In this document: one piece after another, positions 35,508 through 55,288 of the stretch | Layout: every line of letters begins with the position of its first letter | Numbering within the stretch: position 1 is the first letter of the stretch | NCBI GenBank assembly: GCA_036703275.1 | Contig: DATNPK010000020.1 | Location: 1-64,000, forward strand | Origin: Coleofasciculaceae cyanobacterium | GTDB lineage: Bacteria > Cyanobacteriota > Cyanobacteriia > Cyanobacteriales > Xenococcaceae | Direction of reading: 5' to 3' | DNA: 64,000 bases | Translations under genes and position numbers: made by a program | Notes under the pieces: model-generated | What the model was told of the DNA's origin: nothing | What the model saw: only the letters and a program-made list of their open reading frames with translations | Databases searched by the model: none

Positions 35508-35547
35508 TTTGAACAAAATTAAGCGCAAAATTTGAAGAACTTGTGAT
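35508..35547 (-). promoter_or_regulatory. Shared stress-promoter element, upstream of the GST gene
   Basis: On the minus strand: CATCACAAGTTCTTCAA, then AT-rich spacer, then GTTCAA. It is the least regular copy in the second half. It is oriented toward the gene starting at 35279. Confidence 0.5.
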
Positions 35548-35649
35548 GTTCTAAAAAAGTATTAAATTTCTCGACAAATATATAAAAATATAAAAAAATT
35601 TAGGCGCTGGTGATTTGATGTATGCCTTACAACAGCAAGACTTGCACAT

Positions 35650-36178
35650 TTGCCCGTGCATGATTCACGGATAAACCGCACTCCGCCCTTCGGTCTCGAA
35701 GCTTATCCGTGATAGACTAGCTTCTTACAAAAGTTGCTCATGGGGCGGCGGCTTTTGAGTAAGAATCTTCTTACTCAACCTCGACAGTTCCTATAACGGG
35801 GGGAACCCCCGCAACGGACTGTCTCGCAAAACGCGCCTTGCTTGCACCGCTTAGTTTGGTGGAAACCCCCAAGACCGCACTTTTGCCCTAAAGGATATGC
35901 CAATCACGGATTCACGGATAAACCGCACTCCGCCCTTCGGTCTCGAAGCTTCTTGAAGCAGTCCTAAAGGATACACCTTCGGATATCGCTATACTTGGGC
36001 AAAGCCCAAGACCGCCCTAAAGGATTAGCTCCTTACGTCGCGTCCGCTGCTCCGCTTATCATGCACGGACTAACTTCGTGTCGCGCTTCGCGTCGTCCTT
36101 TAGGACAGCCCCTCACGATCTGCGCGTACGCGCTGCGCTATTAGCCCTTCGCGTCCTCTGCGTCGTCCGTTCAGGGAC
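35650..36178. repeat. Cluster of nested palindromic mini-elements
   Basis: About 530 bases in the 1.25 kb spacer between the GST and nitroreductase genes consist of short modules. Unit A runs 35653-35715 (CCCGTGCATGATTCACGG, CTCCGCCCTTCGGTCTCGAA, TTATCCGTGATAG) and recurs in part at 35905-35952. TCCTTTAGGA-type palindromes, GCGTCGCG and GCTTCGCG modules and G-rich hairpins (35797-35809) fill the rest. Base composition is far more GC-rich than the surroundings. No coding frame is supported. Confidence 0.8.
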
Positions 36179-36229
36179 GCAACTGTCTCACTTTTAGCTT
36201 TTTTAACTTGAGGACAAACAGCATCTTTA

Positions 36230-36267
36230 CCCTCACAAGTTCCTCAGACTTTTGAACTAACTTCAAA
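36230..36267 (+). promoter_or_regulatory. Shared stress-promoter element, upstream of the nitroreductase gene
   Basis: CCCTCACAAGTTCCTCAG, 13 bases, then CTTCAA, oriented toward the gene at 36531. An 86-base repeat (36346-36431) sits between this element and the gene, which lengthens the leader. Confidence 0.6.
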
Positions 36268-36345
36268 GTGAACTCAAAACAATATCGTTACACAACTATT
36301 GAGCTATTGAGCTATTGAGCGTTGAGAAAAATAAATTATGGTGAT

Positions 36346-36431
36346 GCGATTGGGCTCCGCCCACGGACGCGCCTCCAGGCGAGATGCGAAGCGAATCCTT
36401 TAGGGCTAATCCTTTAGGGCTCCGCGATCGC
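36346..36431. repeat. 86-base repeat element, copy 2
   Basis: One mismatch against 31460-31545 over 86 bases, with the same ends (GCGATTGGGC and GCGATCGC). It is located between the shared promoter element and the nitroreductase start. Confidence 0.85.
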
Positions 36432-36530
36432 GGCATAAATAGCAGCACAAGCGTTCCTAATAACTTGCGTTTATTTGGATTATCAACAAGAACTAATCGA
36501 CTATGACTAATTTGACCTAGGAGAAATACA

Positions 36531-37571
36531 ATGTCCAGACTAACATTTGACGCTATAAAAATTCTAGAAGATGATTTTCCTGTAGCTGAATCGACAGCAG
36601 AAAAACTTAAATTTTTACTTAACTATGCAGTATTAGCACCATCGGGACACAATACTCAGCCTTGGATATTTAAAATAGTTGATGATGTTGTTGAACTATA
36701 TGCTGACAAAACTCGCGCTTTACTTGTAGCCGATCCAAATTATCGTGAACAAATTATAAGTTGTGGAGCAACTTTGTTTTATCTCCGCATTGCCATGCGC
36801 CACTTCGGTCATAGAGACGTAGTAGAAATTCTTCCCGAACATCTCAATCCTAATTTGTTAGCGCGTATTCGCTTAGGGAGCAAAAGAATTGTCCAAGTCG
36901 AAGAAAACTTTTTGTTTTGGGCAATTTCCCAAAGATGTACTAATCGTCGTCCTTTAGAAAATTGTCGGCTTCCTACATCTTTAATCTCAGAACTAAAATC
37001 AGCTACTAGTTCAGAAGGGGATTGGCTACAGATCTCGACACAGGTTATTCCTGAAGCTAGTCGTGAAGAAATCGTTAACTTAATTGCTCAAGGCGATCGC
37101 CTGCAAATGTCTAATCCGCTATTTCGCCAGGAATTAGCTCGCTGGATTCACTCTAGCAGAACTTCCCGTCATAATGGTCTAACCCCAGAAGCCCAAGGAA
37201 TCAATCCCAGATTAGAGGCGATCGCGCCTTTAATTTCGGCTATCCGCTCGTTCAATCTAGGTAAATCTCAGGCTAATAAAGACCGAAAATTGGTAGAAAC
37301 TGCACCTGTGTTAATTTTAATCAGCAGCAATGGCGACACTCCCCAAGACTGGTTAGCTACTGGGGAAGCTCTAGCACATTTACTATTAAGAGCCAGGGTT
37401 GACGATGTTTGGGCATCTTTGTTGAATCAACCAATTGAAATTCCCCAATTGCGATCGCGCCTACAGACCTTATTTCCCGAAAATGGCTACCCGCAAATTC
37501 TCCTCCGCTTAGGATATGCCAAAGACACCAAACCTACTCCGAGAAGAGCTGTCGATGAAGTGATGTTATGA
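36531..37571 (+). CDS. Acg-family nitroreductase-like FMN protein
   Basis: A 346-residue protein of the Acg family within the nitroreductase superfamily. The N-terminal FLLNYAVLAPSGHNTQPWIFKIVDD is the characteristic FMN-binding opening. SCGATLFYLRIAMRHFGH and FWAISQRCTNRRPLE follow, and TGEALAHLLLRARVDDVWAS corresponds to the C-terminal FMN-contacting region. Family members include the dormancy-regulated Acg of mycobacteria; they may sequester flavin rather than reduce nitro compounds. RBS AGGAGA precedes ATG 36531. A shared promoter element lies at 36230-36267, suggesting coregulation with the Usp, CBS and Hsp20 genes. Confidence 0.82.
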   Translation: MSRLTFDAIKILEDDFPVAESTAEKLKFLLNYAVLAPSGHNTQPWIFKIVDDVVELYADKTRALLVADPNYREQIISCGATLFYLRIAMRHFGHRDVVEILPEHLNPNLLARIRLGSKRIVQVEENFLFWAISQRCTNRRPLENCRLPTSLISELKSATSSEGDWLQISTQVIPEASREEIVNLIAQGDRLQMSNPLFRQELARWIHSSRTSRHNGLTPEAQGINPRLEAIAPLISAIRSFNLGKSQANKDRKLVETAPVLILISSNGDTPQDWLATGEALAHLLLRARVDDVWASLLNQPIEIPQLRSRLQTLFPENGYPQILLRLGYAKDTKPTPRRAVDEVML

Positions 37572-37658
37572 AGTCAGGCTAGGGACAATATCTTCACAGA
37601 CGCTACTTAACCCGCGAATCGCCCCTACTGATTACTAATCAGATTAAAGGAGAACAAA

Positions 37659-38537
37659 ATGAATTGGCGAAAAATTCGAGCTTTAATCTTAGCGTTTTTA
37701 GCAGCTTTCTTATTGATTTTAGTGACTGGAGTTGCGAGCGCAAAAAGTGAAGCCGATCTTCAGATTTTTAAGATGGGCAATAACGTTATAGTTCCCGCTG
37801 GACAAGTAATGACCGATGTAGTGGCTATTGGTGGCGATGTTACCATTCTCAATCAGGGACGAGTTACCAACGATGCAGTGGCTATTGGTGGCGACGTGAT
37901 TCTCAAGACCAATGCTAGTGTTGGTGGGGATGCGGTTGCTATTGGCGGACAAATTATCAAAGAATCAGGTGCGTTAGTTGGGGGTAACGAAGTAGTCGCG
38001 TTTAGTAACGCCAAAGTGTTATTAGATCGCTTCGGCTTATTTGGCACTATTTATTTAACCAATGTCTTATTTTTTCTCGTCTCTTTAATGGTCATCTTTG
38101 CTTTTGGTGTATTCTTGCTTTTACTACTTCCCGAGCGGATTAAAAGCATCACTGCAACTATGCACCAACATCCGTTTGAAAGTGGAATATGGGGTCTGGT
38201 TAGTATTGTGGCGATTACGCTATTTACCTCCCTATTTAGCGGTAGCGTATTTGGGTTTTTGCTTATTCCCATCGTTAATTTAGCCTTTTTTGTCGCTGGA
38301 TTACTAGGTGCGATCGCAACTGGTTTATGGATCGGTAAAAAAGTTTTGCCTCGTAAAGAAAACGCTTTTATTCCTTTCTTGGTAGGAATGTTAATTCTAG
38401 CCGTAATTGGTCTGATTCCCATTGCAGGACGATTAATTATTCTAATGCTTAATCTCTTTGGCTTGGGTGCAGTTTTGCGATCGCGAGTTGGTACGATACA
38501 GCCAGCAACTATTCAAAAACAACGCGATCGCACTTGA
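37659..38537 (+). CDS. Membrane protein with bactofilin-like repeats
   Basis: A 292-residue protein with a signal peptide (AFLAAFLLILVTGVASAKS). A short right-handed beta-helix-like section follows with a repeated VAIGGDV motif (residues 50-115, three turns: TDVVAIGGDVTI, NDAVAIGGDVIL, GDAVAIGGQII). The C-terminal half has about five membrane segments. The repeats resemble polymer-forming cytoskeletal/bactofilin domains but lie on the extracytoplasmic side. Function is unknown; a role in envelope integrity is plausible. It lies 87 bases after the nitroreductase gene, probably in the same transcript, with an RBS AAAGGAGAA. Confidence 0.7.
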   Translation: MNWRKIRALILAFLAAFLLILVTGVASAKSEADLQIFKMGNNVIVPAGQVMTDVVAIGGDVTILNQGRVTNDAVAIGGDVILKTNASVGGDAVAIGGQIIKESGALVGGNEVVAFSNAKVLLDRFGLFGTIYLTNVLFFLVSLMVIFAFGVFLLLLLPERIKSITATMHQHPFESGIWGLVSIVAITLFTSLFSGSVFGFLLIPIVNLAFFVAGLLGAIATGLWIGKKVLPRKENAFIPFLVGMLILAVIGLIPIAGRLIILMLNLFGLGAVLRSRVGTIQPATIQKQRDRT

Positions 38538-38618
38538 TGGTTCAACGCAACCATTAGGAGGATAATGAGCGATAATAACTGGTAGGGACATGAAAAGATT
38601 ATGCCCCCCAGATTAAAT

Positions 38619-39749
38619 TTAGGAATGAACCATTAAATATTGTCCATTTCCCAGAAAATTGCCCTGACCTGCTTCAAAATAAGCAATACACCATAAAAGA
38701 TATAGTCTCCACATCCGTCTAAATCTAGAATAGTCCATGCCAAAATCTAAGGTTTTAATTACATCTTGGTTATCATCAAAGTTTTTTAACCAAGTGCGTA
38801 AAGTTTGCGCATAATTCATACCATTGATGTACCATGTGTCGATTGTTTTAAGATCTTGATTACAATTAGGAATAAAGTCATAATGCCAAACTCGTGCATA
38901 GGGAAATATATATTTCTGAATAAAAGGAGGCCAGAAATTATGACTTAAGCTGGAGCTTATAATATGAATAAAAACTTTGCCTTCAGGCTTTAACAAAGAA
39001 GCAACTTTGGCCAAAGATTTGGTCAAGTTACCAATATGTTCAAACGCACCCAAGGTAATAACTTTGTCAAATTTATGAGTAAAAACAACATCATTAAAAT
39101 CTGCTTCACAAAGAGTAAATCGTTCTGAACTCAAAGGACTATTCTGGGTTCTAATTTGTTTACGAATATATTCGCATTGCCCATGGCTCAAATTCAAACC
39201 AGTTACCTTGACATTGGGGAATTTTTGCAAAATATAATTAGCAGCAGAACCCCAACCACAACCAATATCTAGTATTTCGTCTCCATCGACAATCTGCGCT
39301 TTTTCGAGCAGGTCATCTAGCATAGCAATTTGGGCTGCTTCTAAGTTTGTGGCTCCTTGTTCCCATAGTGCCATGGTATATTTAGGATACATTACATCAC
39401 TTTCACCCAGCATCAACTTGAACATTGTTTCTGGTTGATTGTATTGAATATCCATCAATTCCTGTGAACTTTCAGCAAGGAGATCGCTTTCTTTGGTAAC
39501 CCAATCATAAGCAATCATTAAAGAAGAAAGATTTTTATAGAAAAATGCCGTGGTATTGGTCAATAATTTTAGACACAATGCATCAGGTATTTTTAAGCCA
39601 TTAATATAGCTTTCAGCAAACAGCAGCTGTATTCCATTAATCGGTTTTACCATTAAAGGCTTATATTGCTTGCTAACAGAGTTTTGCTGAAGATTTTGAG
39701 CATTAACCGCTTGAGAGTCTAGCTGTTTAATATTGTTTGTAGAAGTCAT
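38619..39749 (-). CDS. Cyclopropane-fatty-acid synthase-like methyltransferase
   Basis: A SAM-dependent enzyme of 376 residues in the CFA/mycolic-acid methyltransferase group. YNQPETMFKLMLGESDVMYPKYTMALWEQG is the lipid-side N-domain. DGDEILDIGCGWGSAANYI is motif I, GLNLSHGQCEYIRKQI matches the CFA signature, and FDKVITLGAFEHIGNLTKSL holds the carbonate/catalytic Glu region. The sequence is closest in style to plant coclaurine-methyltransferase-like homologues. The frame opens at 39842, but ATG 39749 has GGAGAG at the right distance. It is paired with a membrane-protein gene upstream, so the substrate may be a membrane lipid or lipid-derived amine (inference). Confidence 0.8.
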   Translation of the reverse strand: MTSTNNIKQLDSQAVNAQNLQQNSVSKQYKPLMVKPINGIQLLFAESYINGLKIPDALCLKLLTNTTAFFYKNLSSLMIAYDWVTKESDLLAESSQELMDIQYNQPETMFKLMLGESDVMYPKYTMALWEQGATNLEAAQIAMLDDLLEKAQIVDGDEILDIGCGWGSAANYILQKFPNVKVTGLNLSHGQCEYIRKQIRTQNSPLSSERFTLCEADFNDVVFTHKFDKVITLGAFEHIGNLTKSLAKVASLLKPEGKVFIHIISSSLSHNFWPPFIQKYIFPYARVWHYDFIPNCNQDLKTIDTWYINGMNYAQTLRTWLKNFDDNQDVIKTLDFGMDYSRFRRMWRLYLLWCIAYFEAGQGNFLGNGQYLMVHS

Positions 39750-39874
39750 AGTTTGATTTTCTCTCCAAAGTATTTGCCTGAATTTAAACTGAAAGCTTGG
39801 ATTGTTTATTTGTGAGGCGAATAACAATTCTTCAAAACACATTTAAGAATGCTCTAAGCATCTGCTGTTTCTAG

Positions 39875-40675
39875 TTACTGCTCAACAGAAGATTGCTCGG
39901 GACAATTTCGACAGGAATGACCATACCAAGCTCTTTCTTCTTGAGCAGTTGTATACTTAGATGCTAATAATTCGGTAACATCTTCCATAGTTCCATCAGC
40001 TGCTACCCAACCATTGTCAACATCAGGAAAGTCTAGCTGACAATTTTCACATTTTTTCTCAGAATAAAAGCGAATTGGACACCAAAATGACTCGACATTA
40101 CGTAACATTTCTGTGGCTAATGACCATACTCCAGTCATCCAATCACAATACAAACACCAAATTAAATCGTAGCCGATTAATCCTTCAAACTTTTGTCGCG
40201 AAACATTTACCCAGTCTTTGGAGTTATATCGAGGTAGTTTCACTAACTTAGTTAAAGGAGGATAAACAATTACTTCAGTAAAACGAACTACCCAAAATAA
40301 AGGAATAGCTAAGGCAGTAATCCACATCGCTGCATGATTTTGCCATTTGCCGACTATATTACTCATTTGACGATGAATTTTAGCTCGCTCGCTTTGCTCT
40401 CGATGAGTCAATTCATGGCCAATTATCCATAACCATAAAGCAGTTAATTCGGCTAATAGTGCAATTCCCAAACCTTGCCATCCTAATGCAAGCATACCAA
40501 TGGTGAGTGGCATCAACATGAAATAGGCTAATGCCAAATCTATACCTGGTGCATAGCAAAACCAATCAGCAATTTTCTTTCCTCCTGAACCTAAGCGTGG
40601 AACTAAGTGCAGAAAACTTGCTCCGACAATCAATAATCCAACTAAATAACCATAAAGTAATATGAGTTGATTCAT
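39875..40675 (-). CDS. Unrecognised membrane protein with Cys-rich C-terminus
   Basis: A 266-residue protein with about five membrane segments in the first 150 residues (LLYGYLVGLLIVGASFLHL, LALAYFMLMPLTIGMLAL, LGIALLAELTALWLWIIGHELTH, AAMWITALAIPLFWVV). WIIGHELTHRE places His and Glu residues at a membrane edge, perhaps a metal site. The C-terminal domain has two Cys pairs (CENC near residue 210 and CRNC near residue 257) that could bind metal. It lies 126 bases upstream of the CFA-like gene on the same strand and probably works with it. I do not recognise the family. Confidence 0.55.
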   Translation of the reverse strand: MNQLILLYGYLVGLLIVGASFLHLVPRLGSGGKKIADWFCYAPGIDLALAYFMLMPLTIGMLALGWQGLGIALLAELTALWLWIIGHELTHREQSERAKIHRQMSNIVGKWQNHAAMWITALAIPLFWVVRFTEVIVYPPLTKLVKLPRYNSKDWVNVSRQKFEGLIGYDLIWCLYCDWMTGVWSLATEMLRNVESFWCPIRFYSEKKCENCQLDFPDVDNGWVAADGTMEDVTELLASKYTTAQEERAWYGHSCRNCPEQSSVEQ

Positions 40676-41297
40676 CGAAATATTCTCCTTTGATTTGGTG
40701 TTGAGAATCTGGAAATCGTAATGTACTTAATTAATCTCGATCGGGCTCAAAGTCCATATATCACTAGATTTGACCATAGATTCAGCGATTGTTTGCTGGT
40801 TAAGCCAATAGCTTTTAAAATATTTTTGATCGACTCTTATTTTTAATGAGCGATCGCCTTTGTATGTTAGTGTTGCTTTGTATTTTTAGTAGTTGACAAT
40901 TCTGCCTTTGATTAACTTGTCATTAATAGTCATTAATTATTGAGTTTATTAACTAAGGACACGTGGCAGTTATTTAACAACAATGCTAATACTAATAACC
41001 AATTATGAGAAAACTGTGAAGATAGATAGTAATAAAGATTTTTATAGTTTTATTAGGCTAAAAACCTTATGAAGTCTAACTTGCAGCATTTTAGCCTGGA
41101 CGTGCTGGTAGGTTGTCTTGAGCTGTAACTGTGTTTGCCCATCTATTAACTAGCTTTTGCTTCACAAGTTTCTCAAGTTTTAAAATTAAGTTGAAAATGA
41201 AGATGAAATGAAAATAAGTTTAGTGCAGGAGATTTGTCTTCAAAAGAAGCGATCGCAGCTTGAGCAAAACACAAATCAAGATTGAAGGAGGAGCAAG
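40676..41297. other. 622-base spacer with a possible coding remnant
   Basis: The minus-strand stretch 40727-40885 reads 52 codons that look protein-like (LKIRVDQKYF, SYWLNQQTIAESM, SSDIWTLSPIEIN) before TAA. It has no start codon and stops lie just upstream, so it may be a remnant of an unknown gene. The shared promoter element for the THUMP gene occupies 41160-41195. Nothing else is recognised. Confidence 0.4.
41160..41195 (+). promoter_or_regulatory. Shared stress-promoter element, upstream of the THUMP gene
   Basis: CTTCACAAGTTTCTCAA, 13 bases, then GTTGAA, oriented toward ATG 41298 about 100 bases away. Confidence 0.55.
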
Positions 41298-41843
41298 ATG
41301 CTTAACTGGAATGTAGTGGTTACCCTAGACGAACATAGCTTCAGTCAAGCTTATTTGCTACTAGAAGAATTGGGAACAGTCTATCAAAGCGACTTTGAAA
41401 ATGTTTTGCTGATGAAGGTCGAAAGTATTCCTCTATTTCTAGAAACTTTTAATAATAAACTAATAAAAGAGCCTAGTCTGGCTAAACTTGTATCTCGAAT
41501 AGTGCCTGTCACTGCAACTTTTTCTTTTCAATCATCAGCAGAATTTGAAATCAAAGCTAAAGAAATAGTCTTAAACTGGTTACCTACCTTAGCAGGTAAA
41601 AAATTCTCGGTTCGGATGCACCGTCGAGGTTTCAAGGGTCTTATTTCCAGTGACTACGAAGCAGGTTTTCTCGATCGAATTATCCTGGAAGAACTGCAAA
41701 CATTGGGCAATCCAGGACAGATCGACTTGGAAGACCCCGATGCAATAGTAGCTGTAGAAACTGTATCGCAACAGGCTGGACTCTCCTGCTGGATTCGCCA
41801 GGATTGGCAAAACTATCCTTGGTTAAGACTGAACCAACCTTGA
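41298..41843 (+). CDS. THUMP-domain protein
   Basis: A 181-residue protein that appears to be a stand-alone THUMP fold. NWNVVVTLDEHSFSQAYLLLEELG begins it. FKGLISSDYEAGFLDRIILEEL and DPDAIVAVETVSQQAGLSCWIRQDW correspond to the C-terminal THUMP core, in which a conserved Arg/His-rich strand (KKFSVRMHRRGFKG) binds RNA. THUMP proteins usually help modify tRNA, but no catalytic domain is attached here. Strong RBS GGAGG at 41287-41291. It has its own copy of the shared promoter element, unexpected for an RNA-modification-type protein. Confidence 0.7.
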   Translation: MLNWNVVVTLDEHSFSQAYLLLEELGTVYQSDFENVLLMKVESIPLFLETFNNKLIKEPSLAKLVSRIVPVTATFSFQSSAEFEIKAKEIVLNWLPTLAGKKFSVRMHRRGFKGLISSDYEAGFLDRIILEELQTLGNPGQIDLEDPDAIVAVETVSQQAGLSCWIRQDWQNYPWLRLNQP

Positions 41844-42043
41844 TGCTCTTTCTTATCCAACAAATTAGACGCAGTTACTTGTATTGTTGGTTTTAAGCAA
41901 TATTTCGCAATATATGTTCACGCTTGATTCAAGTTTTCATACATATAATATAAGTATTTATAACTAAATAAACAATAGTTGTAAATAAGAAATCATCGAT
42001 ATTTATACTTTAATGGCAATAACCTAGTAGGCATAGCATAGTC

Positions 42044-45000
42044 ATGCAGCAGAATAACTCAATCTCCTGGGAACAAGCAATCGAAAAAGAACTACTAGCT
42101 GTATCTCCTGAAATCCTACTAGAAGACGCGATCGCCTTAATGAGCCAAAATTGGACCAAAAGTTGTTTATTAACAGTTGAAGAGCGCATTGGTGAATCTG
42201 ATTTTCTCACCCCAGTCGATCGCAGTTGTGTTTTAGCGATCGCTAATTCTCAAATACAGGGTATTTTGACCGAGCAAGCTTTGACTCGTTTAATTGCCTC
42301 GGGAAAAAACATCAAAGGTATTACTCTAGGCGAGGTGATGAGCCGAGATGTGATTACTTTAACTTCTACGGGTTCACAAGATATTTTTACGTTACTAAAT
42401 TTATTTCGTCGATATCCAATTCATCATTTACCAATCGTCGATCAAAACCATTGCTTGCTAGGGTTAGTTACACAAAGTAGTTTGCGTCGAGCATTGCGAT
42501 CGGTTGATTTATTGAAATTCCGCACGGTTAAAGAAGTAATGTCTAGAGCAATCCACGCATTACCAGACGCTTCGGTGTTGTCAGTGGCTCAATTGATGAG
42601 TGATTATCAGGTAAGCAGCATACCGATCGTGGAAACTAATGATTTGCTCATCCCCTTGGGGATTATTACCGCAACAGATATAGTTCAGTTTAAATTACTA
42701 GAGTTGAATTTGGCAGAGATTCCAGCACGGGTAGTCATGAGTACTCCTTTGTTTCTCGCCCAGCCTGATGACTCTCTTTGGGAGGTGCATCAGCAAATGA
42801 ATCAATATCTCGTGCGACGCATAGTAGTAACTAGTGAACAAGGAGAACTACTGGGCATTGTTACCCAAGGTGGTTTATTACGAGCAATTAAGCTTAGCGA
42901 TCTGCATGGTTCTTGGTCAATATTACAAAGTCGTAATCTTGAGCTGGCAAGTCAAGTTGAGTTACAGGCAAAGGAATTAAAAGATCGAGAGCAAAAAGAG
43001 CAGGTAGTAGCAGAAATTGCCTTACGAATTAGGCAGTCTCTAGATTTAAAATTGATCCTCCAAACCACTGTAGATGAAGTAAGACAGTTGATCGAGGCAG
43101 ATCGGGTATTAATTTATCGTTTTGAACCAGACTGGATTGGTATTGTCAGCACCGAAGCAGTTAGTCAGCCTCAATGGTCGATTTTAGCTCGATTGATTAA
43201 AGACGCTTGTTTTGAACCAGCATGGATCGAACCTTATCAACAGGGACATATTTTTGCCGTAGCCGATATTCATCAAGCTAACTTGAGTCCATGTCATGTT
43301 GAATTTTTGGAAAATCTTCAGGTACAAGCCAATGTTGCCATACCAATTTTATTAACCGAGTCCAATGCTGAGGCAGATCGCCTCTGGGGATTATTAATTG
43401 TCCATCAGTGTTCTAACATTCGTCATTGGCAGGAGTCGGAACTAGAGCTACTCCAGCGTTTAGCTACTCAAGTTGCGATCGCCATCCAGCAAGGAGAACT
43501 GTATCAGCAAGCAAAAATTGAAGTCGAACAACGTCAGCAAGCAGAACAAAAGTTAAGAGAACGAGAAACACAACTAAGAACAGCCCTTGATGCGGCTGCC
43601 CTGGGGACATGGATTTGGGATATGACTACTAATAAGGTAATTTTATCCGAACGCTCCCAAGCAATTTTAGGTTTTACTCCTGGAGAATTTCCTGGCACTC
43701 TAGATGCAGTTTTAGAGCTGATCCATCCTGAAGATCGTAGCAATATCCATGAACAAACTACCAGGGCGATTAAGTCGGGCGAACTTTACGAAATTGAAAC
43801 TCGCATTAGTCTAGCCAATAAACAAGAGCGCTGGCTGACAGCTAGAGGTCATGCTTTGCTTGACGCTCAAGGGCTGGCGACGCAGATGAATGGTGTTCTT
43901 GCCGATATTACAGAGAAAAAACTTTTAGAAGAACAGTCTCGTCGTCACCAAAGATTAGAAAGCCTTGGCTCTTTAGCTGGTGGTGTGGCTCACGATCTAA
44001 ATAACATTCTGACGCCAATTTTGATGAGCGTGCAGCTTTTGCCTGTTACCCTACCTCAAATCGATCCTCGCTCTCGAGAGTTGATTCAAATGCTGGAAAA
44101 CAACGTCCAACGTGGTTCGGCTTTAGTGCAGCAGGTATTATCCTTTACCAGAGGTATTGAGTCAAAGCAAGGTGTTGTGCAGGTTAAACACTTAATTAGA
44201 GATATACGCCAGATTGCCAAGGAAACTTTTCCCAAGTCAATTGAAATTCAGACCAATGTACCATCTAACTTATGGACTGTTCGGGGAGATGCTACACAAA
44301 TTCATCAAATTTTACTCAATTTGGTAATTAACGCTAGAGATGCCATGCCTGATGGAGGACTATTAAATATCGTTGCGGCTAACTTATTACTTGATGAGAC
44401 ATCTGTTCGAGAATATCCTCAAGCCAAAGCAGGCTCTTATATAGCAATTTCAATTAGCGATACGGGATTAGGTATTGCACCTGACAATATAGAGCAGATT
44501 TTTCAACCATTTTTTACGACTAAAACAGAAGAGGGTGGTACGGGTTTAGGATTAGCAACGGTAATTAATATCATTCGCAATCATGGCGGCTTTATTAATG
44601 TGGTAAGTCAGATCGAACAAGGAACTCAGTTTGATGTGTTTATACCCGCGATTAAGATGGCTGAATCAGACTTGACTGAGAGTGGAACTATTCCTAAGGG
44701 CAAAGGAGAATTAATTTTAGTGGTAGATGATGAAGCGACAATTCGCGAAATCACCAAAGCCTCTTTGGAAACTCACAACTATCGAGTCATTACCGCCAAT
44801 GATGGTATCGAAGCCGTTGCCGCTTACGTCAAAAATCAAGCTGAGGTTGCCGTAGTATTAATGAATATGATGATGCCTGCTATGGATGGCACGACTGCTA
44901 TTCGCACCCTGCAAAAAATCAATCCCGATGCCAAGATTATTGCCGTTAGCGGGCGCAATTTTACTAGCCAAATATTTAGCGATCGCAATCTAAATATTAG

Positions 45001-45070
45001 CAGTTTTTTAGCTAAACCCTATACTACCAACGCTTTATTACAAAGAATTAGGGATGTGGTTAGTAGTTAG
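42044..45070 (+). CDS. Hybrid histidine kinase: CBS x4, CBCR-like GAF, PAS, kinase, receiver lacking Asp
   Basis: A 1008-residue soluble sensor. Four CBS domains (about residues 15-290) probably bind adenosyl nucleotides. A GAF domain (about 325-490) has phytochrome-superfamily features: ADRVLIYRFEPDWIG, Cys417-His418 in SPCHVEFL, and LWGLLIVHQC. The Cys-His pair is where cyanobacteriochromes attach a bilin. A PAS domain (about 515-630) precedes the kinase core, with His650 in GGVAHDLNNIL and ATP-binding NLVINARDAM, DTGLGI and GGTGLGLATV. The C-terminal receiver (about 888-1005) keeps DDE and the Lys in LAKPY, but Asn941 replaces the phospho-acceptor Asp in VVLMNMMMPAMDG. It may signal without internal phosphotransfer. 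Confidence 0.88.
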   Translation: MQQNNSISWEQAIEKELLAVSPEILLEDAIALMSQNWTKSCLLTVEERIGESDFLTPVDRSCVLAIANSQIQGILTEQALTRLIASGKNIKGITLGEVMSRDVITLTSTGSQDIFTLLNLFRRYPIHHLPIVDQNHCLLGLVTQSSLRRALRSVDLLKFRTVKEVMSRAIHALPDASVLSVAQLMSDYQVSSIPIVETNDLLIPLGIITATDIVQFKLLELNLAEIPARVVMSTPLFLAQPDDSLWEVHQQMNQYLVRRIVVTSEQGELLGIVTQGGLLRAIKLSDLHGSWSILQSRNLELASQVELQAKELKDREQKEQVVAEIALRIRQSLDLKLILQTTVDEVRQLIEADRVLIYRFEPDWIGIVSTEAVSQPQWSILARLIKDACFEPAWIEPYQQGHIFAVADIHQANLSPCHVEFLENLQVQANVAIPILLTESNAEADRLWGLLIVHQCSNIRHWQESELELLQRLATQVAIAIQQGELYQQAKIEVEQRQQAEQKLRERETQLRTALDAAALGTWIWDMTTNKVILSERSQAILGFTPGEFPGTLDAVLELIHPEDRSNIHEQTTRAIKSGELYEIETRISLANKQERWLTARGHALLDAQGLATQMNGVLADITEKKLLEEQSRRHQRLESLGSLAGGVAHDLNNILTPILMSVQLLPVTLPQIDPRSRELIQMLENNVQRGSALVQQVLSFTRGIESKQGVVQVKHLIRDIRQIAKETFPKSIEIQTNVPSNLWTVRGDATQIHQILLNLVINARDAMPDGGLLNIVAANLLLDETSVREYPQAKAGSYIAISISDTGLGIAPDNIEQIFQPFFTTKTEEGGTGLGLATVINIIRNHGGFINVVSQIEQGTQFDVFIPAIKMAESDLTESGTIPKGKGELILVVDDEATIREITKASLETHNYRVITANDGIEAVAAYVKNQAEVAVVLMNMMMPAMDGTTAIRTLQKINPDAKIIAVSGRNFTSQIFSDRNLNISSFLAKPYTTNALLQRIRDVVSS

Positions 45071-45123: not shown

Positions 45124-46295
45124 TCAGACAGCAATTGCAGTTTGAAACTGACTGACATCGCCTAACCCCAAGGTTGAAGCCCCAACCTTTTGAATTACTC
45201 GGCTAGCGTTTCTATCGCGTCCGTGTTTAGTAGAGCAACTCGGACAAACCCAATAACGCTCGTTTAAACCAATGTTATCAATTACAAAATTACACTCCGA
45301 GCAGGTTTTGGTAGAAGGATACCAACGGTCGATATAACTGACTGTCTTGCCTTTTTTAGTTGCTACCCAATCTAATATCTTTAGAAATTCGCTCATAGCT
45401 AAGTCGCCGATCTTACGACCCCATAGTCGCTGCATTGCTTTTAGATTGAGCGTCTCAAAGAACAAATAATCAAATTTGTCTGTTAACTTATGGGCAAACT
45501 TCCAGAACCAGTCTGAACGACGGTTAACTACTTTTTCGTGTACTTTAACTAGGTCTTGTCTAGCTTTTTCTCTAGACTTAGAACCTCGTTTTTTGGTGGA
45601 ATGATTGCGACTAGCTAACTTCAGCTGTCTCAAAGATTGCTTGAGAAACAATGGCGATTTAATTTCTGTGCTGTCGGAGCAACTTAGAAAAACCTTTAAT
45701 CGCAGCGCATTCGCGCAGAGCGTCGCTAGACGCGACTTGGGGCGATAGCCCCTGCATCAAAACCCGCGCTGTTACCCGTCATGATTGTTAATACTCGGTC
45801 TATAAAGTCTGTCACTACAAACAAAAATAATTCTCCTAGTGGATTACGTTTAACAGTGACAGTTTTAATGTTTCCTTCAATTTCTCGGCTTTTCCAGAAT
45901 TTGTAGATTCGCTTATTTATTTTTAATCGGTTGCCATCTAAAAACTTATAACCAGCTTGCTTTAGCGTGAAAGATTTATACTTGATTCTTTTTCTAAAAT
46001 TTGGCGGTTTTACTCCTTTCTTATGGTGCTTGAAGAATAGCTGGTACGCCCTATCTATCCGCTGCACGATATCTTGTACGGCTTGAGAGCCTACCAATTG
46101 CCAGTACTCATTTTTATTTCTGAGCTTGGCTATATGCTTCATTAACTTATTCTTGCTCAAGTGCTTGCCAAATAAGCTGTAGTAGCTTCTATGCAAAGCA
46201 ATGCAGTGGTTAAATATATTCCCCGCTGCATTTATCGTGCGTATAAGATGCCTGTTTCGCTTATGTTGGTAGAGCTTGAATTTATAAGTCTTCAT
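45124..46295 (-). pseudogene. TnpB (RNA-guided nuclease) disrupted by a mini-element
   Basis: TnpB is an accessory RNA-guided DNA nuclease, ancestral to Cas12. The N-terminal part (ATG 46295, TYKFKLYQHKRNRHLIRTI onward) runs to TGNSAGFD, the RuvC-I motif. It then enters about 54 bases of GC-rich palindromic sequence (45702-45755) with stops. The rest (from about 45700 down) has the RuvC-II Glu in YLFFETLNLKAM, the zinc ribbon (CSEC and CPSC) and the RuvC-III GRDRNAS. The usual RuvC-I DxG context and the reading frame are destroyed, so the nuclease is inactive. A guide RNA, if made, would come from the right-end region near 45080-45200. Confidence 0.85.
45702..45755. repeat. GC-rich palindromic mini-element inside tnpB
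   Basis: The stretch consists of GCGCAGAGCGTCGCTAGACG followed by the hairpin GGGGCGATAGCCCC. It interrupts TnpB immediately after GFD of RuvC-I. It shares GCGTCGC modules with the intergenic clusters. Confidence 0.65.
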
Positions 46296-46336
46296 GTGTC
46301 TATTGTACAATATTATAGACACCAATTAAATACGAC

Positions 46337-46735
46337 ATGGGACAAGAATATCGTCATAAAAATACTTCAGTCACATTAATCAACTACCACTTTGTCTGGT
46401 GTCCGAGAAGACGCAGAAAAGTATTGAAAGGATTAATCGAACAGCGACTAAAAGTTTTGATACACGAAGCTTGTCAAGACAGCGACTTAATTGTAGTAGC
46501 TTTAGAAGTGATGCCCGACCACGTTCATGCTTTCCTCAATTGTCCGCCTACAATTTCACCGTCTCAAGTGATGCACAAAGTCAAAGGCTATACTGCTAGA
46601 TATTTGCGACAAGAATTTACCGAGCTGCTAAAAATGCCCTCAATGTGGACTAGGAGCTATTTCTGTTCGACCGCTGGGAACGTCTCATCGGCTACGGTCG
46701 AAAGATATATTGCTCAACAAAAAACTCGTGGATAG
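46337..46735 (+). CDS. tnpA: IS200/IS605 Y1 transposase TnpA
   Basis: A 132-residue HUH endonuclease-type transposase that moves single-stranded DNA. The HUH motif is in VMPDHVHAFLNCPP, with the conserved VWCPRRRRKVL at the N-terminus. The nucleophilic Tyr lies in ATVERYIAQQKTRG at the C-terminus. Length is typical of the family. It diverges from the broken tnpB, with a 41-base gap to the tnpB ATG at 46295. The reading frame is complete, so it could still mobilise this element or related copies. Confidence 0.88.
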   Translation: MGQEYRHKNTSVTLINYHFVWCPRRRRKVLKGLIEQRLKVLIHEACQDSDLIVVALEVMPDHVHAFLNCPPTISPSQVMHKVKGYTARYLRQEFTELLKMPSMWTRSYFCSTAGNVSSATVERYIAQQKTRG

Positions 46736-49789: not shown

Positions 49790-49949
49790 TTTTTTTTCCC
49801 TGTAATGACATCTGCTTTGCTCAAGTAGTCAGTAGCAAGTAAGATATTGTCAGGTTTTCAAATCAAACCAAAGCTAGACTTATTACTCATTATTTGCTCC
49901 GCTTATCCGTGATAGACTCATTACTCGCTACTCCTGAAGCCCACGCCTA

Positions 49950-50477: not shown

Positions 50478-50570
50478 TAATTAACACTATTTGGACAAGT
50501 TTTATATTTCTATATTTTGCTTTTCTTACCTAGATTGAAAAATAACTTAGTTGAATAATATTGTTGCCTC

Positions 50571-50792
50571 CTAATCTTCTGACCATACATCTTTGGCTAA
50601 AAGATCGCAGATATGATCTCGCAATAGATAATCATTTCTTTCCAACTCACATTCAAGGCAAATCCATTCTCTTGGTGGAATAAACTGACAAAGAACATAG
50701 ATTGGCTGGTGGCAATTGACTTTGCCTGTTTCAACCAGCTGGCGAGCTTCATCTTTAATTTCACCGATAGAATAACCGACTTTGGCAAGCAT
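50571..50792 (-). CDS. DUF4327 small protein
   Basis: A 73-residue cyanobacterium-typical protein. VGYSIGEIKDEARQLVETG, QPIYVLCQFIPPREWICLEC and ELERNDYLLRDHICDLL match the DUF4327 pattern. Function is unknown. ATG 50792 with GTGAGG upstream is preferred over 50804. The shared promoter element lies only about 30 bases upstream of this start (50824-50860), the closest spacing of all copies, so the element may overlap the core promoter here. Confidence 0.75.
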   Translation of the reverse strand: MLAKVGYSIGEIKDEARQLVETGKVNCHQPIYVLCQFIPPREWICLECELERNDYLLRDHICDLLAKDVWSED

Positions 50793-50823
50793 TATGTACC
50801 TCACTGGTTAATTCGAGCTTAAA

Positions 50824-50860
50824 TTGAAGATAGTATTAAAGCTTGAAGAACTTGTGAGGA
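50824..50860 (-). promoter_or_regulatory. Shared stress-promoter element, upstream of the DUF4327 gene
   Basis: On the minus strand: TCCTCACAAGTTCTTCAA, then GCTTTAATACTAT (13 bases, partly overlapping in count), then CTTCAA. This is the clearest copy. Confidence 0.65.
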
Positions 50861-50871
50861 TTTTTTCAGAA

Positions 50872-51237: not shown

Positions 51238-51280
51238 AAGTAATTCTCCTGGTTTTTAGTACGCTATATTTAGGCATAAA

Positions 51281-51829: not shown

Positions 51830-51939
51830 TTTATTACTCCTTTTGGTTTTTAGTGGTTAATTTGGCTGTTATACTATTGAGCAAAATTAATCAGATATTT
51901 AGTCGTGGATCGATCCGTCTGAGATCTTGCTGTATAAGA

Positions 51940-51991
51940 GTCCCCGTGCATGATTTGCGTCGCGAAGCGAGTCCCAAAGGATGCCGCTAGA
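51940..51991. repeat. Mini-element fragment (CCCGTGCATGATT / GCGTCGCGAAGCG)
   Basis: Short copy with the CCCGTGCATGATTTGCGTCG and CGCGAAGCGAGTCCCAAAGG modules, lying directly after the stop of the next Usp gene. Confidence 0.7.
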
Positions 51992-51992
51992 C

Positions 51993-52583
51993 TTATTGCA
52001 CTCTTTTGATATTTATCTCTTCAACTAATGCGCGAGAATTGATATTAACTGTAAGTTCTTGCTGATTAACGGTTTTTTCGGCTTCAGCAAATGTTTGCTC
52101 TGGTTGAGAATCTATGCCAGAACGGACGATGAAGACTGAACAGGGTGCATGATGGGTTACGTAATTACTGACGCTGCCCAGGAACATTTCTTTTAAGCCT
52201 TTTAGTCCACGACTACCGACTACAATTAGATCGGCTGACCAATTGTTGGCGAGTTCGCAAATCATTTGTCCTGTATTTCCACTCAATTGAGTATATTCTG
52301 TGTCTACTCCCGCTGCTGTGGCTTCTTGAGTTAGGTTATGGAGCAAATTTAACCCTCGTTGTCTATACTCTGCCAATTGTTTTTGATATGCGTCGTATTC
52401 ATGGTTGTCCACGATTGGATAATAGGTATAGGTGGGTAATATGGGATAGTCCGCTTCCGTGTTGGACATGACATGAAGCAGCATTAAGGTAGCGCCAGTA
52501 GTTTGGGCTAAAGATACTGCTGCGTCAAAGATAGGTATATTGTTTTCCGCATTTGCTACTGCTACTAAAATTTTGTTAATCAT
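51993..52583 (-). CDS. Universal stress protein (UspA family)
   Basis: A 196-residue Usp: MINKILVAVANAENNIPIFD, then SADLIVVGSRGLKGLKEMFLGSVSNYVTHHAPCSVFIV. The first motif has Asn-Ala in place of the usual Asp near residue 12, so ATP binding at that position may be altered. The shared promoter element is at 52862-52898, 280 bases upstream. A decayed copy of its C-terminal coding sequence seems to lie at 59720-59760. Confidence 0.87.
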   Translation of the reverse strand: MINKILVAVANAENNIPIFDAAVSLAQTTGATLMLLHVMSNTEADYPILPTYTYYPIVDNHEYDAYQKQLAEYRQRGLNLLHNLTQEATAAGVDTEYTQLSGNTGQMICELANNWSADLIVVGSRGLKGLKEMFLGSVSNYVTHHAPCSVFIVRSGIDSQPEQTFAEAEKTVNQQELTVNINSRALVEEINIKRVQ

Positions 52584-52998
52584 TAGAAATACCTCTTTTA
52601 ATCAAGTCACTGAGGAGTCGGGAGTTAGGTTTGAATTAAATTGGTCTGAGATATTGAAGCCTTATAGCACTCCAAGCAAAGATTAAGACACGTCGCTCAA
52701 AAGCTAATAGCTCGTTTTATAACTAACGTCCTAATCTATAGTTCACTGGCTATAGTTGTTGCCCGCGCGATCGCAGGGTGCGTAAAATCTTCGACCTCAT
52801 TGCTTATCTAACTTCGACCTCATTGCTTAGATAGGATTAGTAATATTTAAAGGTTAATAGTTCAGTTGTAAATAATTAATTTGAGGAACTTGTGAGGATA
52901 TTTAGTAGCTTTTAGCGCTATCTTATGACAATAGTTGGTTTATCTTAACTACGTAGGTTCTAGTTTAAGCTAATAGCTATTAGCTTTTAGCTAATTTC
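52584..52998. other. 415-base spacer with promoter element and palindromes
   Basis: Besides the shared promoter element (52862-52898), the spacer has a short direct repeat TTCGACCTCATTGCTTA at about 52793 and 52812. A palindrome-like AGCTAATAGCTATTAGCTTT is at about 52972. No gene is supported. Confidence 0.5.
52862..52898 (-). promoter_or_regulatory. Shared stress-promoter element, upstream of a Usp gene
   Basis: On the minus strand: TCCTCACAAGTTCCTCAA, 13 bases, then AACTGA. The second half is degenerate. Confidence 0.55.
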
Positions 52999-53493
52999 TC
53001 AACCACTACACCAATTGTCGTATTCTCCTTCCCAATCCACAATTTCCCATTCTTTTTCTATTGATTGATCTAGGGGCAATTCGGATGTTCGCTCAGAGAT
53101 AAATTTGGCTTTGTTTGAAGTTAAGCAATTGGTTTTGGTGATGATGTCGGTTATGGAGACAACGCCAAGTAGTTTGTCTTTGATTACAGGCGCAATGCGA
53201 ATTTTAGCTTGAGCAAATAAGTTAGCAATGTGTTCTACAGCCAAGTCGGGGTTGACCACAATACAGGGTTTGGTCATAATTTGGCAAACATAAGTTGTGG
53301 CTGGATCTTGGGCATTGGCGATCGCCTGTGAAATGTCCGTTGCCGTGACGATGCCATAAGCATCTTGCTCTGAGGCGCGATCAACAATTAAAGTCTTGAC
53401 ATGTTGCTGCTTCATGACTTTAGCAGCTTGGGTAATCGTCGCTAAACTATCAATAGTGACGACGTTGCGAGTCATAATATCTGCTGCTTTCAT
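52999..53493 (-). CDS. CBS-domain pair protein
   Basis: A 164-residue protein made of two CBS domains: MKAADIMTRNVVTIDSLATITQAAKVMKQQ with GIVTATDISQAI, then QIMTKPCIVVNPDLAVEHIANLF with LLGVVSITDII. Such stand-alone pairs bind AMP/ATP-like ligands and often regulate partners under low energy. The C-terminal EKEWEIVDWEGEYDNWCSG is unusual and acidic. It is probably cotranscribed with the two small genes upstream, starting within the end of the 87-residue gene (44-base overlap). Confidence 0.87.
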   Translation of the reverse strand: MKAADIMTRNVVTIDSLATITQAAKVMKQQHVKTLIVDRASEQDAYGIVTATDISQAIANAQDPATTYVCQIMTKPCIVVNPDLAVEHIANLFAQAKIRIAPVIKDKLLGVVSITDIITKTNCLTSNKAKFISERTSELPLDQSIEKEWEIVDWEGEYDNWCSG

Positions 53494-53713
53494 GGGTGTC
53501 TCTTGCGCCTATTTCTTGTCTGTAAGTTAGTAATTCAGACCAATATTCGTCAAAAAGATTACTTTTTATGTTTCTAACTCTTTGGTCAATAGATGCCTCT
53601 ATAGAATCATCGTCAGCGACTGCCGGGAAAGCTAATTTTTGGGCAAAGGACTCTTCGTAATCGGCTTTTGGCAATATCATGTAATCATTTTTGGTTTGAA
53701 TATTTGACCACAT
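53450..53713 (-). CDS. Small unrecognised protein
   Basis: An 87-residue hydrophilic protein (DYEESFAQKLAFPAVADDD, SIDQRVRNIKSNLFDEYWSE). The start at 53713 is plausible (18 bases after the DUF4278 stop side), and a nearby ATG at 53680 is an alternative. The last 15 codons overlap the CBS gene in another frame, so the C-terminus may be fortuitous. I do not recognise a family. Confidence 0.5.
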   Translation of the reverse strand: MWSNIQTKNDYMILPKADYEESFAQKLAFPAVADDDSIEASIDQRVRNIKSNLFDEYWSELLTYRQEIGARDTHESSRYYDSQRRHY

Positions 53714-53731
53714 TTTACTTAACTCAATTAT

Positions 53732-53914
53732 TTATTTGCTATAGTGAATGCCACGATACACTAATTCAGTATGACGTGGGGGAAGACGGTGCTGCTCTCT
53801 CATGCGATGTATTTTCCAAGGCACACCGCGATATTTACCACCTACCTCACCTTCAACTACTTGCCATTCAACATAAGGATCCTGATAATCTTGACCGTGA
53901 AAATGTAGTTTCAT
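53732..53914 (-). CDS. DUF4278 small protein
   Basis: A 60-residue protein with the cyanobacterial DUF4278 pattern: MKLHFHGQDYQDPY at the start, KYRGVPWKIHR in the middle and LVYRGIHYSK at the end. Function is unknown. RBS GGAGG lies just upstream. It is the first gene of a small operon with the 87-residue protein and the CBS pair, and the shared promoter element is about 95 bases upstream. Confidence 0.78.
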   Translation of the reverse strand: MKLHFHGQDYQDPYVEWQVVEGEVGGKYRGVPWKIHRMREQHRLPPRHTELVYRGIHYSK

Positions 53915-54006
53915 AATTACTTTCCTCCGAATTCAATAGATAAGCAAGAGCTTAGTAATCTCGTTGATACAGAGCGAAAAAAAGACTTTCTTGATTCTCT
54001 CTATAC

Positions 54007-54043
54007 TTCAAGATAGATAAATAAATTGAAGAAATTGTGAGGA
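54007..54043 (-). promoter_or_regulatory. Shared stress-promoter element, upstream of the DUF4278-CBS operon
   Basis: On the minus strand: TCCTCACAATTTCTTCAA, 13 bases, then CTTGAA. Confidence 0.6.
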
Positions 54044-54114
54044 AGTAGCAGTGACTGTGCTTTTGGGTTGAGTAGAATACACAAGTTTAATCTGAAAAGC
54101 TAAGAGCTAATAGC

Positions 54115-54352
54115 TAAAAAGCGAAGCAGCGCGGTGGACAGGTTCACGGTCAAGCCCGTGCATGATTCCCGTGCATGGTATATCCGTAGGTGTCTATAGC
54201 GGATACACCTTCGGATAAGCGCCTGGGGGCGCGTCCCGCACCAACGCCCTGGCATAAAGCGATATGCGAAGCGGTGACGCGACGTAAGGAGGACGCGACG
54301 TAAGGAGCTAATCATGCACGGGCTAATCCTTTAGGAATCCTTTAGGACTGCT
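54115..54352. repeat. Cluster of nested palindromic mini-elements
   Basis: Contains unit D at 54168-54220 (CCCGTGCATGGTATATCCG, then a GGTGT/ACACC stem at 54189-54209 with loop CTATAGCGGAT, then TTCGGATAAG). A tandem GACGCGACGTAAGGA pair is at about 54276-54305. CATGCACGGGCTAATCCTTT and TCCTTTAGGA units follow. No coding is supported. Confidence 0.8.
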
Positions 54353-54475
54353 TCAAGAACTAATCAATCAACAACGTAGTCTATCAAGCCAGGAAAACTG
54401 CTTGTATATTAAGCTAATTGCCGATTTAAAACTATCAGAAAAATTTTTAAATGATATCATCCGATGATGATCGCT

Positions 54476-55009
54476 TCAAGGGTTAAAAGAAGCTAACTGT
54501 GTTGCTTGTTGAGATGACTCAGAATTTAGCTTGGCAGTTTCGCGCAGCACTAAAACCGAGCATGGGGCATGGTGGGTTACATAATTACTCACGCTGCCCA
54601 GAAATATTTCCTTGACACCAGTTAGACCTCTACTACCGATTACAATTAGATCTGCTGACCATGTTTTAGCCAAGTCACAAATAGTACGTCGAGGATCTCC
54701 AAAGTCTTGAGTAAATTCAGCATTGACTCCTGTTGTTGCTGCTTCTTTGACAAGCGATCGCAGTGTTTCTAATCTTCTTTGTTTAAATTTTTCCCATTGT
54801 TCTTGATAAATTGTCCAAAGAGAGTCATTCATCGGTTCGGATTTAAAACCAGAATAGATAAAGGGATTAGGATAATTATTGGGCTCGGGTGAAATAATGT
54901 GTAACAACATCAATTTAGCTCCAGTTGATTGTGCCAGAGATAAAGCGGTGTTGAAGGCACTGTTATTTATTTCTGAAAGATCTATTGCCACTAATATTTT
55001 GTCAAACAT
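54476..55009 (-). CDS. Universal stress protein (UspA family)
   Basis: A 177-residue Usp: MFDKILVAIDLSEINNSAFN, then SADLIVIGSRGLTGVKEIFLGSVSNYVTHHAPCSVLVLRE with the complete nucleotide motif. It is closest in style to the Usp at 52.0-52.6 kb. The truncated hsp20 gene lies 84 bases upstream on the same strand, and the shared promoter element precedes that, so it may drive both. Confidence 0.88.
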   Translation of the reverse strand: MFDKILVAIDLSEINNSAFNTALSLAQSTGAKLMLLHIISPEPNNYPNPFIYSGFKSEPMNDSLWTIYQEQWEKFKQRRLETLRSLVKEAATTGVNAEFTQDFGDPRRTICDLAKTWSADLIVIGSRGLTGVKEIFLGSVSNYVTHHAPCSVLVLRETAKLNSESSQQATQLASFNP

Positions 55010-55092
55010 AAGCTAGATTCCACATTTTAAGCTTTAATCCGCGATCGCTAAAATTATCAACGCCCATGATCTAAGAAGTTTCCATTCTTTAA

Positions 55093-55206
55093 TCAAATTT
55101 TGAGCAGTCCATTGTCGCCCACACAAAGCATATCTTCAAATAAACGATCCATTTGCTTTCTCATGGTGCTCAGTTCATGAAATAGTTGCCATTTGCTGAG
55201 TGTCAT
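55093..55206 (-). pseudogene. Hsp20 small heat-shock protein, truncated N-terminus
   Basis: ATG 55206, behind AGAGG, opens 37 codons reading MTLSKWQLFHELSTMRKQMD then RLFEDML. This fits the N-terminus of Hsp20/HspA proteins (M-L-W-PF-E---LR--MDRLFED). The frame then diverges (CVGDNGLLKI) and stops, so the alpha-crystallin domain is missing. The N-terminal match is short but specific. The shared promoter element sits 46 bases upstream. Confidence 0.55.
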
Positions 55207-55251
55207 AATTAACCTCTATGTTTGTCTATTTGATAGCTTTGCAGCTTTGAC

Positions 55252-55288
55252 TTTAAACTATAAAAATATTTTGAAGATATTGTGAAGG
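55252..55288 (-). promoter_or_regulatory. Shared stress-promoter element, upstream of hsp20 remnant and Usp
   Basis: On the minus strand: CCTTCACAATATCTTCAA, 13 bases, then TTTAAA. A degenerate copy. Confidence 0.5.

Follow-up and report, generated by a model that had tools for sequence, protein, structure and literature searches.

An intergenic element that recurs in a 64-kb stretch of cyanobacterial DNA (the window, positions 1-64000 of contig C20 in a genome of 5.62 Mb) is probably a real promoter box, combining an operator with the -10 region of one class of activated promoters. The core, CYTCAMA-N4-CYTCAMA, is a direct repeat, and a TANNNT -10 box comes after it at a fixed distance. Judged by this architecture and by the genes around it, its reader is probably a two-component regulator, apparently an unstudied one, and the most likely candidate would be a hybrid response regulator encoded on contig C69 of the same genome. 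A preliminary description of the window had placed seven elements upstream of seven transcription units. Seven matches with at most three mismatches to CCTCACAAGTTCTTCAA are found at those places, against 0.21 expected, and none of 100 shuffles reaches seven. All seven have their CCTCAC side away from the gene and the other turned towards it, as had been described. The sites are listed below, together with two weaker ones.

Box 1, 35516..35548, minus strand: repeats at 35542-35548 and 35531-35537, -10 box TAATTT at 35516-35521, 28.6 bits; faces the GST gene.
Box 2, 36231..36263, plus strand: repeats at 36231-36237 and 36242-36248, -10 box TAACTT at 36258-36263, 32.8 bits; faces the nitroreductase gene.
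Box 3, 41160..41192, plus strand: repeats at 41160-41166 and 41171-41177, -10 box TAAGTT at 41187-41192, 31.2 bits; faces a gene for a 181-aa protein, then a hybrid histidine kinase gene.
Box 4, 50827..50859, minus strand: repeats at 50853-50859 and 50842-50848, -10 box TATCTT at 50827-50832, 33.4 bits, the best of the genome; faces the DUF4327 gene.
Box 5, 52865..52897, minus strand: repeats at 52891-52897 and 52880-52886, -10-like TACAAC at 52865-52870 (TA kept, final T not), 25.8 bits; faces a Usp gene.
Box 6, 54010..54042, minus strand: repeats at 54036-54042 and 54025-54031, -10 box TATCTT at 54010-54015, 31.7 bits; faces the DUF4278 and CBS genes.
Box 7, 55255..55287, minus strand: repeats at 55281-55287 and 55270-55276, -10 box TAGTTT at 55255-55260, 24.9 bits; faces an hsp20 fragment and a Usp gene.
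Weak box 8, 40986..41023, minus strand: 14.8 bits; faces the gene at 39875-40675.
Possible weak box 9, 60531..60564, minus strand: 17.2 bits, E 0.036 over the whole genome; faces the gene at 59759-60424.

Several of these sites have counterparts in genome G012, which belongs to the same genus. Box 2 has one before a similar gene (L124:4483), box 4 has two before DUF4327-like genes (L125:2143 and 2539), box 5 has one before a Usp-like gene (L125:730) and box 6 has one before DUF4278/CBS-like genes (L124:18896). The counterpart of weak box 8 lies before the orthologous gene and scores 23.3 bits (L124:9928-9965).

The two half sites of the core are CYTCACA and then CYTCAAA, with a period of 11 bp. 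Over 61 sites, the self-match of the repeat (columns -1 to 5) is 0.71 at a shift of 11 and at most 0.43 at all other shifts from 3 to 15. The consensus of 18 aligned intergenic copies from the source genome reads C-Y-TCACAA-N-TTCYTCAAATTT-n-TANNNT. In the 10 exact core-only matches of the genome, TA is found at columns 26-27 in every case (7.5% expected, chance 6e-12) and no more than twice in any other column from 16 to 39; eight of the 10 carry a full TANNNT, T being usual at column 31. CTTCAA had been described as a separate second element. However, the CTTCAA-like letters overlap the TANNNT box (columns 26-31), in which the TA is invariant; therefore the supposed second element is mainly the -10 box. 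The gap between repeat and TANNNT comprises columns 17-25 (9 bp) and does not vary, so that the half sites fall roughly at the -35 position. A repeat over the -35 region with a -10 box at a fixed distance is the layout of OmpR/PhoB-type activated promoters, and it is this combination that assigns the box, provisionally, to that class.

The fixed spacing to a -10-like box and the location of the element over the -35 region might also be expected of an extended -35/-10 promoter recognized by a group 2 or 3 (alternative) sigma factor. This is quite improbable: a -35 box is much shorter than the 18 bp covered here by a repeat of 11-bp period, the symmetry is that of a site for a tandem dimer, and TANNNT is an ordinary -10 box.

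The source genome was scanned with a pattern allowing one mismatch, which gave 31 matches against 13 for a reversed control. Several weaker matches overlap long reading frames, and a 44-column sequence model was therefore built. It uses 18 of the 31 matches, selected by eye for lying between genes and facing one, and counts made on these 18 are thus circular. A scan of the source genome with a weight matrix had been proposed as a check; the model recovers its 18 training sites, and nothing else, at E <0.001, and one more site at E <0.01 (E 0.004). Contigs C20, C69 and C26 carry the training sites, apart from single ones on C10, C11 and C102.

The model was run on 60 genomes, the source genome included. 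All 27 genomes of its own family have 9-78 matches at E <=1, with best values from 1.3e-5 to 5e-8; of the 33 genomes from other families, 29 reach no value below 1e-4. A strict 32-bp pattern is present in 102 of the 388 genomes of the order, among them all 27 of the own family; the reversed control pattern matches no genome among the 388. A still stricter pattern, searched over a collection of 84,980 species, was found in at least 117 stretches, and 117/117 of the matches listed are cyanobacterial by title. On this distribution the box is common to many cyanobacteria. The preliminary description knew of no cyanobacterial box with such a sequence. Likewise, no description of it was found in the literature searched, and text matches to the motif letters were in no case cyanobacterial by title, most subscription papers being beyond the reach of the search.

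Placement relative to genes was determined with gene calls from a simple codon-usage caller written for the analysis, and the relatives counted are genomes outside the building of the model. Random orientation or location within genes had been named as the observation that would speak against a regulatory site. In the relatives, all 48 sites scoring at least 20 bits are intergenic and face a gene on the same strand; with 13 sites of the source genome added, mostly training sites, the count is 61/61. The remaining nine of the 70 distinct sites score below 20 bits (seven gene-facing, one intragenic, one facing away). In other families, 40 stretches hold 44 strict sites, none of them intragenic, and 40 of the 44 face a same-strand gene. 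Among the matches listed for named species (117 stretches, 123 sites), 104 sites face a same-strand gene, 14 an opposite-strand gene and five have no gene nearby; one of the 123 lies inside a called gene, and the upstream neighbours of these sites are split 54/56 by strand, as by chance. When the best site of each of 29 genomes is taken, the first gene is on the same strand in 24 and on the opposite strand in three, and two stretches have no called gene. At L280, L300, L307 and L372 the box sequence is near-identical and the next called gene lies 470-750 bases away on the other strand; perhaps a small gene or RNA was missed there.

Several copies within one window could suggest a mobile element or dispersed repeat that regulates nothing. 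This is hardly credible, because the DNA beside the motif is unlike between the aligned copies; moreover, sites recur before corresponding genes in relatives, their orientation is biased, their internal spacing is fixed and the reversed control is absent from all 388 genomes. The earlier proposal of a regulator-binding site or special promoter is thus upheld by the intergenic, gene-facing sites of the relatives and by the dissimilar flanks.

The genes behind the boxes of the window are as follows.

34311..35279, minus strand: glutathione S-transferase family protein (Pfam GST_C_2, GST_N_2), downstream of box 1.
36531..37571, plus strand: nitroreductase-family protein (Pfam PF00881, 28.9 bits), downstream of box 2.
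41298..41843, plus strand: 181-aa protein, without Pfam match at E 0.001, downstream of box 3.
42044..45070, plus strand: hybrid histidine kinase (CBS, GAF, PAS, HisKA, HATPase and receiver domains, Pfam), second gene after box 3.
50571..50804, minus strand: DUF4327 protein (PF14217), downstream of box 4.
51993..52583, minus strand: universal stress protein (PF00582), downstream of box 5.
53732..53914, minus strand: DUF4278 protein (PF14105), downstream of box 6.
52999..53493, minus strand: CBS-pair protein (PF00571), downstream of box 6.
54476..55009, minus strand: universal stress protein (PF00582), downstream of box 7.

Pfam thus bears out the names given earlier to the GST, nitroreductase, DUF4327, Usp, DUF4278 and CBS genes; the name THUMP for the 181-aa protein finds no such backing. 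Of the hsp20/Usp pair named behind box 7, the Usp gene stands, and the hsp20 frame (window 54700-55250) is by eye a fragment of about 40 residues; the box is kept there, with the Usp gene next. The kinase after box 3 may be either a regulon member or a sensor.

Beyond the window, targets in the source genome are a phosphoribosyltransferase followed by FtsH, a DUF2949 protein, a pentapeptide protein, Hsp20, a CBS pair, DUF3574, DUF1830 and two further proteins without Pfam match. Those of the relatives, assigned by eye, include hydrogenase genes (hoxE, hoxF, hoxU, hoxH, hoxW and hyp genes), metabolic genes (PFOR, PFK, PEP synthase and ADP-forming acetyl-CoA synthetase), an anaerobic ribonucleotide reductase activase and a nar-type reductase cluster. 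At L230 (genome G182, C506), the unit behind a box includes, by eye, a cytochrome-like gene and a large gene resembling nitrate reductase. Culture-collection strains with the box include Chlorogloeopsis fritschii PCC 6912, Fischerella muscicola PCC 7414 and Sphaerospermopsis kisseleviana NIES-73, and in the last of these a box lies 178 bp ahead of a PFOR-like gene. Among the matches listed for named species, 95 first downstream proteins could be used of 104, the others being broken by stretch ends or too long; HSP20 is found in 12, TIGR01244 in nine, Photo_RC (psbA) in seven, Usp in six, hydrogenase maturation protease in five and PFK in three. As a control, 88 upstream neighbours were used of 110 (92 complete, with four duplicates or shared genes dropped), and among the matches listed these comprise 12 receivers, 11 HATPases, eight CBS proteins and four Usps. 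HSP20 and Photo_RC are outside the 25 upstream families listed, the smallest of which has a count of 2. A Pfam search finds no NiFe hydrogenase large subunit in the source genome and finds one in five of 10 family genomes searched. Among the matches listed, four of these five (G004, G018, G020, G022) have a site within about 5 kb of the hydrogenase, and G011 has none nearby. Taken together, the targets appear to form a regulon for dark, low-oxygen fermentation and dormancy, of which the source genome, lacking hydrogenase, would keep the stress part. The dark or anoxic stress guessed at in the preliminary description agrees with the target genes seen in these other genomes.

The D1 forms encoded by psbA genes behind the box are unusual. 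The copy in G326 differs from a solved D1 by E189D, E333A, D342V and A344S, and keeps D170 and H332 (residues counted on the alignment). E333, D342 and the LDLA end are absent from all six full-length box-linked copies of named species; two more copies are incomplete. The psbA4 product, the rogue or sentinel D1, is reported to lack the LDLA motif and to be expressed most highly in the dark, and the same paper, as far as its text was available, treats the role of PsbA4 as unsettled, as shown by a deletion strain (PMC9640542). The box-linked products fit a rogue/sentinel D1, because they too are without the LDLA end, and without E333 and D342.

A gene content of this kind recalls the regulons of DosR and OsdR (PMC5069765, available text), and a DosR- or Fnr-type regulator might be supposed to read the box. 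A Crp-like gene (by eye) does follow one box on C69, where it is in two frames (L033 10423-10990); in G012 it is a longer single frame (L126:15718-16458). Such a reader is nevertheless very improbable, as Crp/Fnr sites are palindromic and the box is a direct repeat; the OsdR site, in the part of the source available, is palindromic as well (PMC5069765).

Contig C69 offers what is most likely the best candidate, a 612-aa protein (L033:8210-10048) with a receiver, Trans_reg_C, Hpt and two further receivers (Pfam). It also carries a 1458-aa PAS/GAF/CBS histidine kinase (Pfam). The order is kinase, box-driven unit (DUF2949 and a second gene), regulator, and it is the same in G012 and G007. The middle receiver of the candidate seems, by eye, to have LYK at the expected phosphorylated Asp, and may be a pseudo-receiver. 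Homologues with 54-87% identity over nearly the full length are found in 22 of the 26 other family genomes, that of G005 from residue 65 only. Four box-adjacent regulators in other families share the first three domains of the candidate (Pfam), and all five regulators scanned carry Trans_reg_C.

Linkage between regulator and box was counted from alignments that extend to residue 300, with one Hpt case added; strict sites served in some genomes and model sites in others, and G305 and G383 were left out. The matches listed comprise 76 Hpt-type regulators from 27 genomes; 13 have a site at a distance of at most 5 kb, against 0.71 expected (about 18 times chance, P 9e-13), and so do nine of the 17 regulators most similar to the candidate. 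G161, G232 and G317 have two model sites each, one of which is 335-528 bp from an Hpt-type regulator gene. In G367 the box is 209 bp upstream of the regulator on the same strand, suggesting autoregulation. A tree of 76 rows places the linked regulators in clades free of rows labelled box-free, save for one linked row (G145). Linked and box-free rows require three changes against 11.3 when shuffled, in a test that omits ten f1 rows, two of them linked (G010, G019). Here a genome is box-free if it lacks a strict match and has at most one model site at E <0.001 or, outside the set scanned with the model, if it lacks a strict match; several of these 15 still have weak model matches (among them G170, G229, G141 and G097, and also G049 with a best E of 2.9e-5). 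In a first tree, with the linked label over all 69 rows, clustering is weak (14 changes against a shuffled mean of 17.5, with 20 of 500 shuffles reaching so few).

Several observations weigh against the C69 hybrid as reader of the box and against an anoxic theme. In the own family, G024 has no ortholog and G025 (81% complete) none, G026 (76% complete) has a fragment only, and the ortholog of G023 is in two pieces. Among the matches listed, 16 of the 27 genomes have no Hpt-type regulator within 5 kb of a site, and G262, G291, G343, G070 and G257 keep one or two sites with no such regulator at E 1e-70. Hpt-type regulators are present also in genomes without the strict box, and their bare presence fails to separate box from box-free genomes. 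Trans_reg_C genes number 19 in the source genome. For some targets a connection with anoxia is not evident, and Usp is nearly as frequent upstream (4/88) as downstream (6/95) among the matches listed, which is expected if sites sit inside Usp clusters but is no proof of targeting.

Part of this could be explained if a different OmpR/PhoB-type regulator (RpaA, RpaB or an unlinked one) bound the box, the linked hybrids being targets or neighbours. The abundance of Trans_reg_C genes, the genomes with sites but no close homologue of the candidate and the unlinked genomes would agree with this, and RpaA is the solved structure nearest the candidate by sequence. To our knowledge, however, RpaA and RpaB are nearly universal in cyanobacteria, yet the strict box is absent from 286 of the 388 genomes of the order, and the linkage of Hpt-type regulators to sites far above chance also argues against a different reader, which is on balance unlikely.

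The preferred reading is that the box is an operator and -10 promoter activated by an OmpR/PhoB-type regulator, most likely the C69 hybrid, under dark anoxia, and we regard it as probable. Repeat, -10 box, spacing, orientation, intergenic placement, conservation, gene set and linkage can be read from the sequences; binding, activation and signal we infer as follows. In dark and anoxic or over-reduced cells, nearby PAS/GAF/CBS histidine kinases would start a phosphorelay leading to phosphorylation of the regulator. A dimer of the OmpR/PhoB-type regulator would bind the two 7-bp half sites head to tail, one helical turn apart, and recruit RNA polymerase with an ordinary sigma factor to the -10 promoter. 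The genes thereby turned on would be those for fermentation and hydrogen, for rogue/sentinel D1 and for protectors of the dormancy type (Usp, Hsp20, CBS, nitroreductase, phosphoribosyltransferase and FtsH).

With somewhat less assurance, though still favoured, several families (Myxosarcina-like, Nostoc relatives and others) may share an undescribed anaerobiosis and dormancy regulon. This would be a functional counterpart of DosR/Fnr, driven by a receiver-winged helix-Hpt hybrid regulator via CYTCAMA-N4-CYTCAMA and controlling hydrogenase, PFOR and rogue/sentinel D1 together. How fermentation, hydrogen production and a D1 without manganese ligands are switched on during the night or in anoxic mats is poorly known for cyanobacteria outside Synechocystis. 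A single box marking such genes gives target lists in about 100 genomes of the order and a phosphorelay-type candidate regulator, and the box is a possible promoter for dark, oxygen-free expression. It would place rogue/sentinel D1 and fermentation genes under one box, and a narrow literature search found no paper doing so.

Other features of the window include a lookalike of an IS200/IS605-type element at 45124-46735, with TnpB in two pieces and a TnpA-like frame (by eye). Pairs of short frames have common peptide stretches, 31428-31592 with 36296-36448 (RSRSPKGLALKDSLRISPGGASVGGAQSH) and 54100-54315 with 55644-55805 (MISSLRRVLLTS), and dispersed repeats between the genes of the region are therefore suggested.

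Among known systems, the class II pho box promoters of PhoB are close in geometry. The pho box has 7-bp half sites, a 4-bp spacer and an 11-bp period, and takes the place of a -35 box ahead of the -10 box, so that the two are alike in having a direct repeat just upstream of -10. However, the PhoB half site is CTGTCAT, not CYTCAMA, the gene set differs, and the candidate here has Hpt and extra receivers. The HLR1 box of RpaB is likewise a direct repeat read near promoters by an OmpR-family protein, but it has GTTACA-type half sites and serves photosynthesis genes. Crp/Fnr/NtcA promoters have palindromic half sites centred near -41, unlike the direct repeat found here. DosR and OsdR are regulators of the NarL/LuxR type, whereas the five regulators scanned here carry Trans_reg_C, a difference that counts only if those regulators read the box.

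In Synechocystis PCC 6803, hox and nifJ are controlled by SigE, cyAbrB2, cyAbrB1 and LexA (PMC11368403, PMC13421787, PMC4463661), and fermentation genes are up under dark microoxic conditions (PMC11368403, PMC13421787). The fermentation genes are the same, but the regulators are of other kinds, and the available parts of these papers name neither a direct-repeat box nor a hybrid regulator of this sort. Other cyanobacterial OmpR-family regulators are RpaA, which controls hox genes in Synechococcus elongatus, and RppA of Synechocystis, the motif of which, AAMAWCTCYYWCCCC, is unlike the box in sequence (PMC13421787, available text). In gene content, there is a close parallel with the regulons of OsdR (Streptomyces) and DosR/DevR (Mycobacterium), which include Usp, nitroreductase, heat shock proteins and pyruvate phosphate dikinase, according to the available part of PMC5069765. 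Two-component control and the theme of hypoxia and dormancy would be shared with the system proposed here, whereas the OsdR box is a 16-nt palindrome (PMC5069765) and the box described here is a direct repeat with an OmpR-type candidate.

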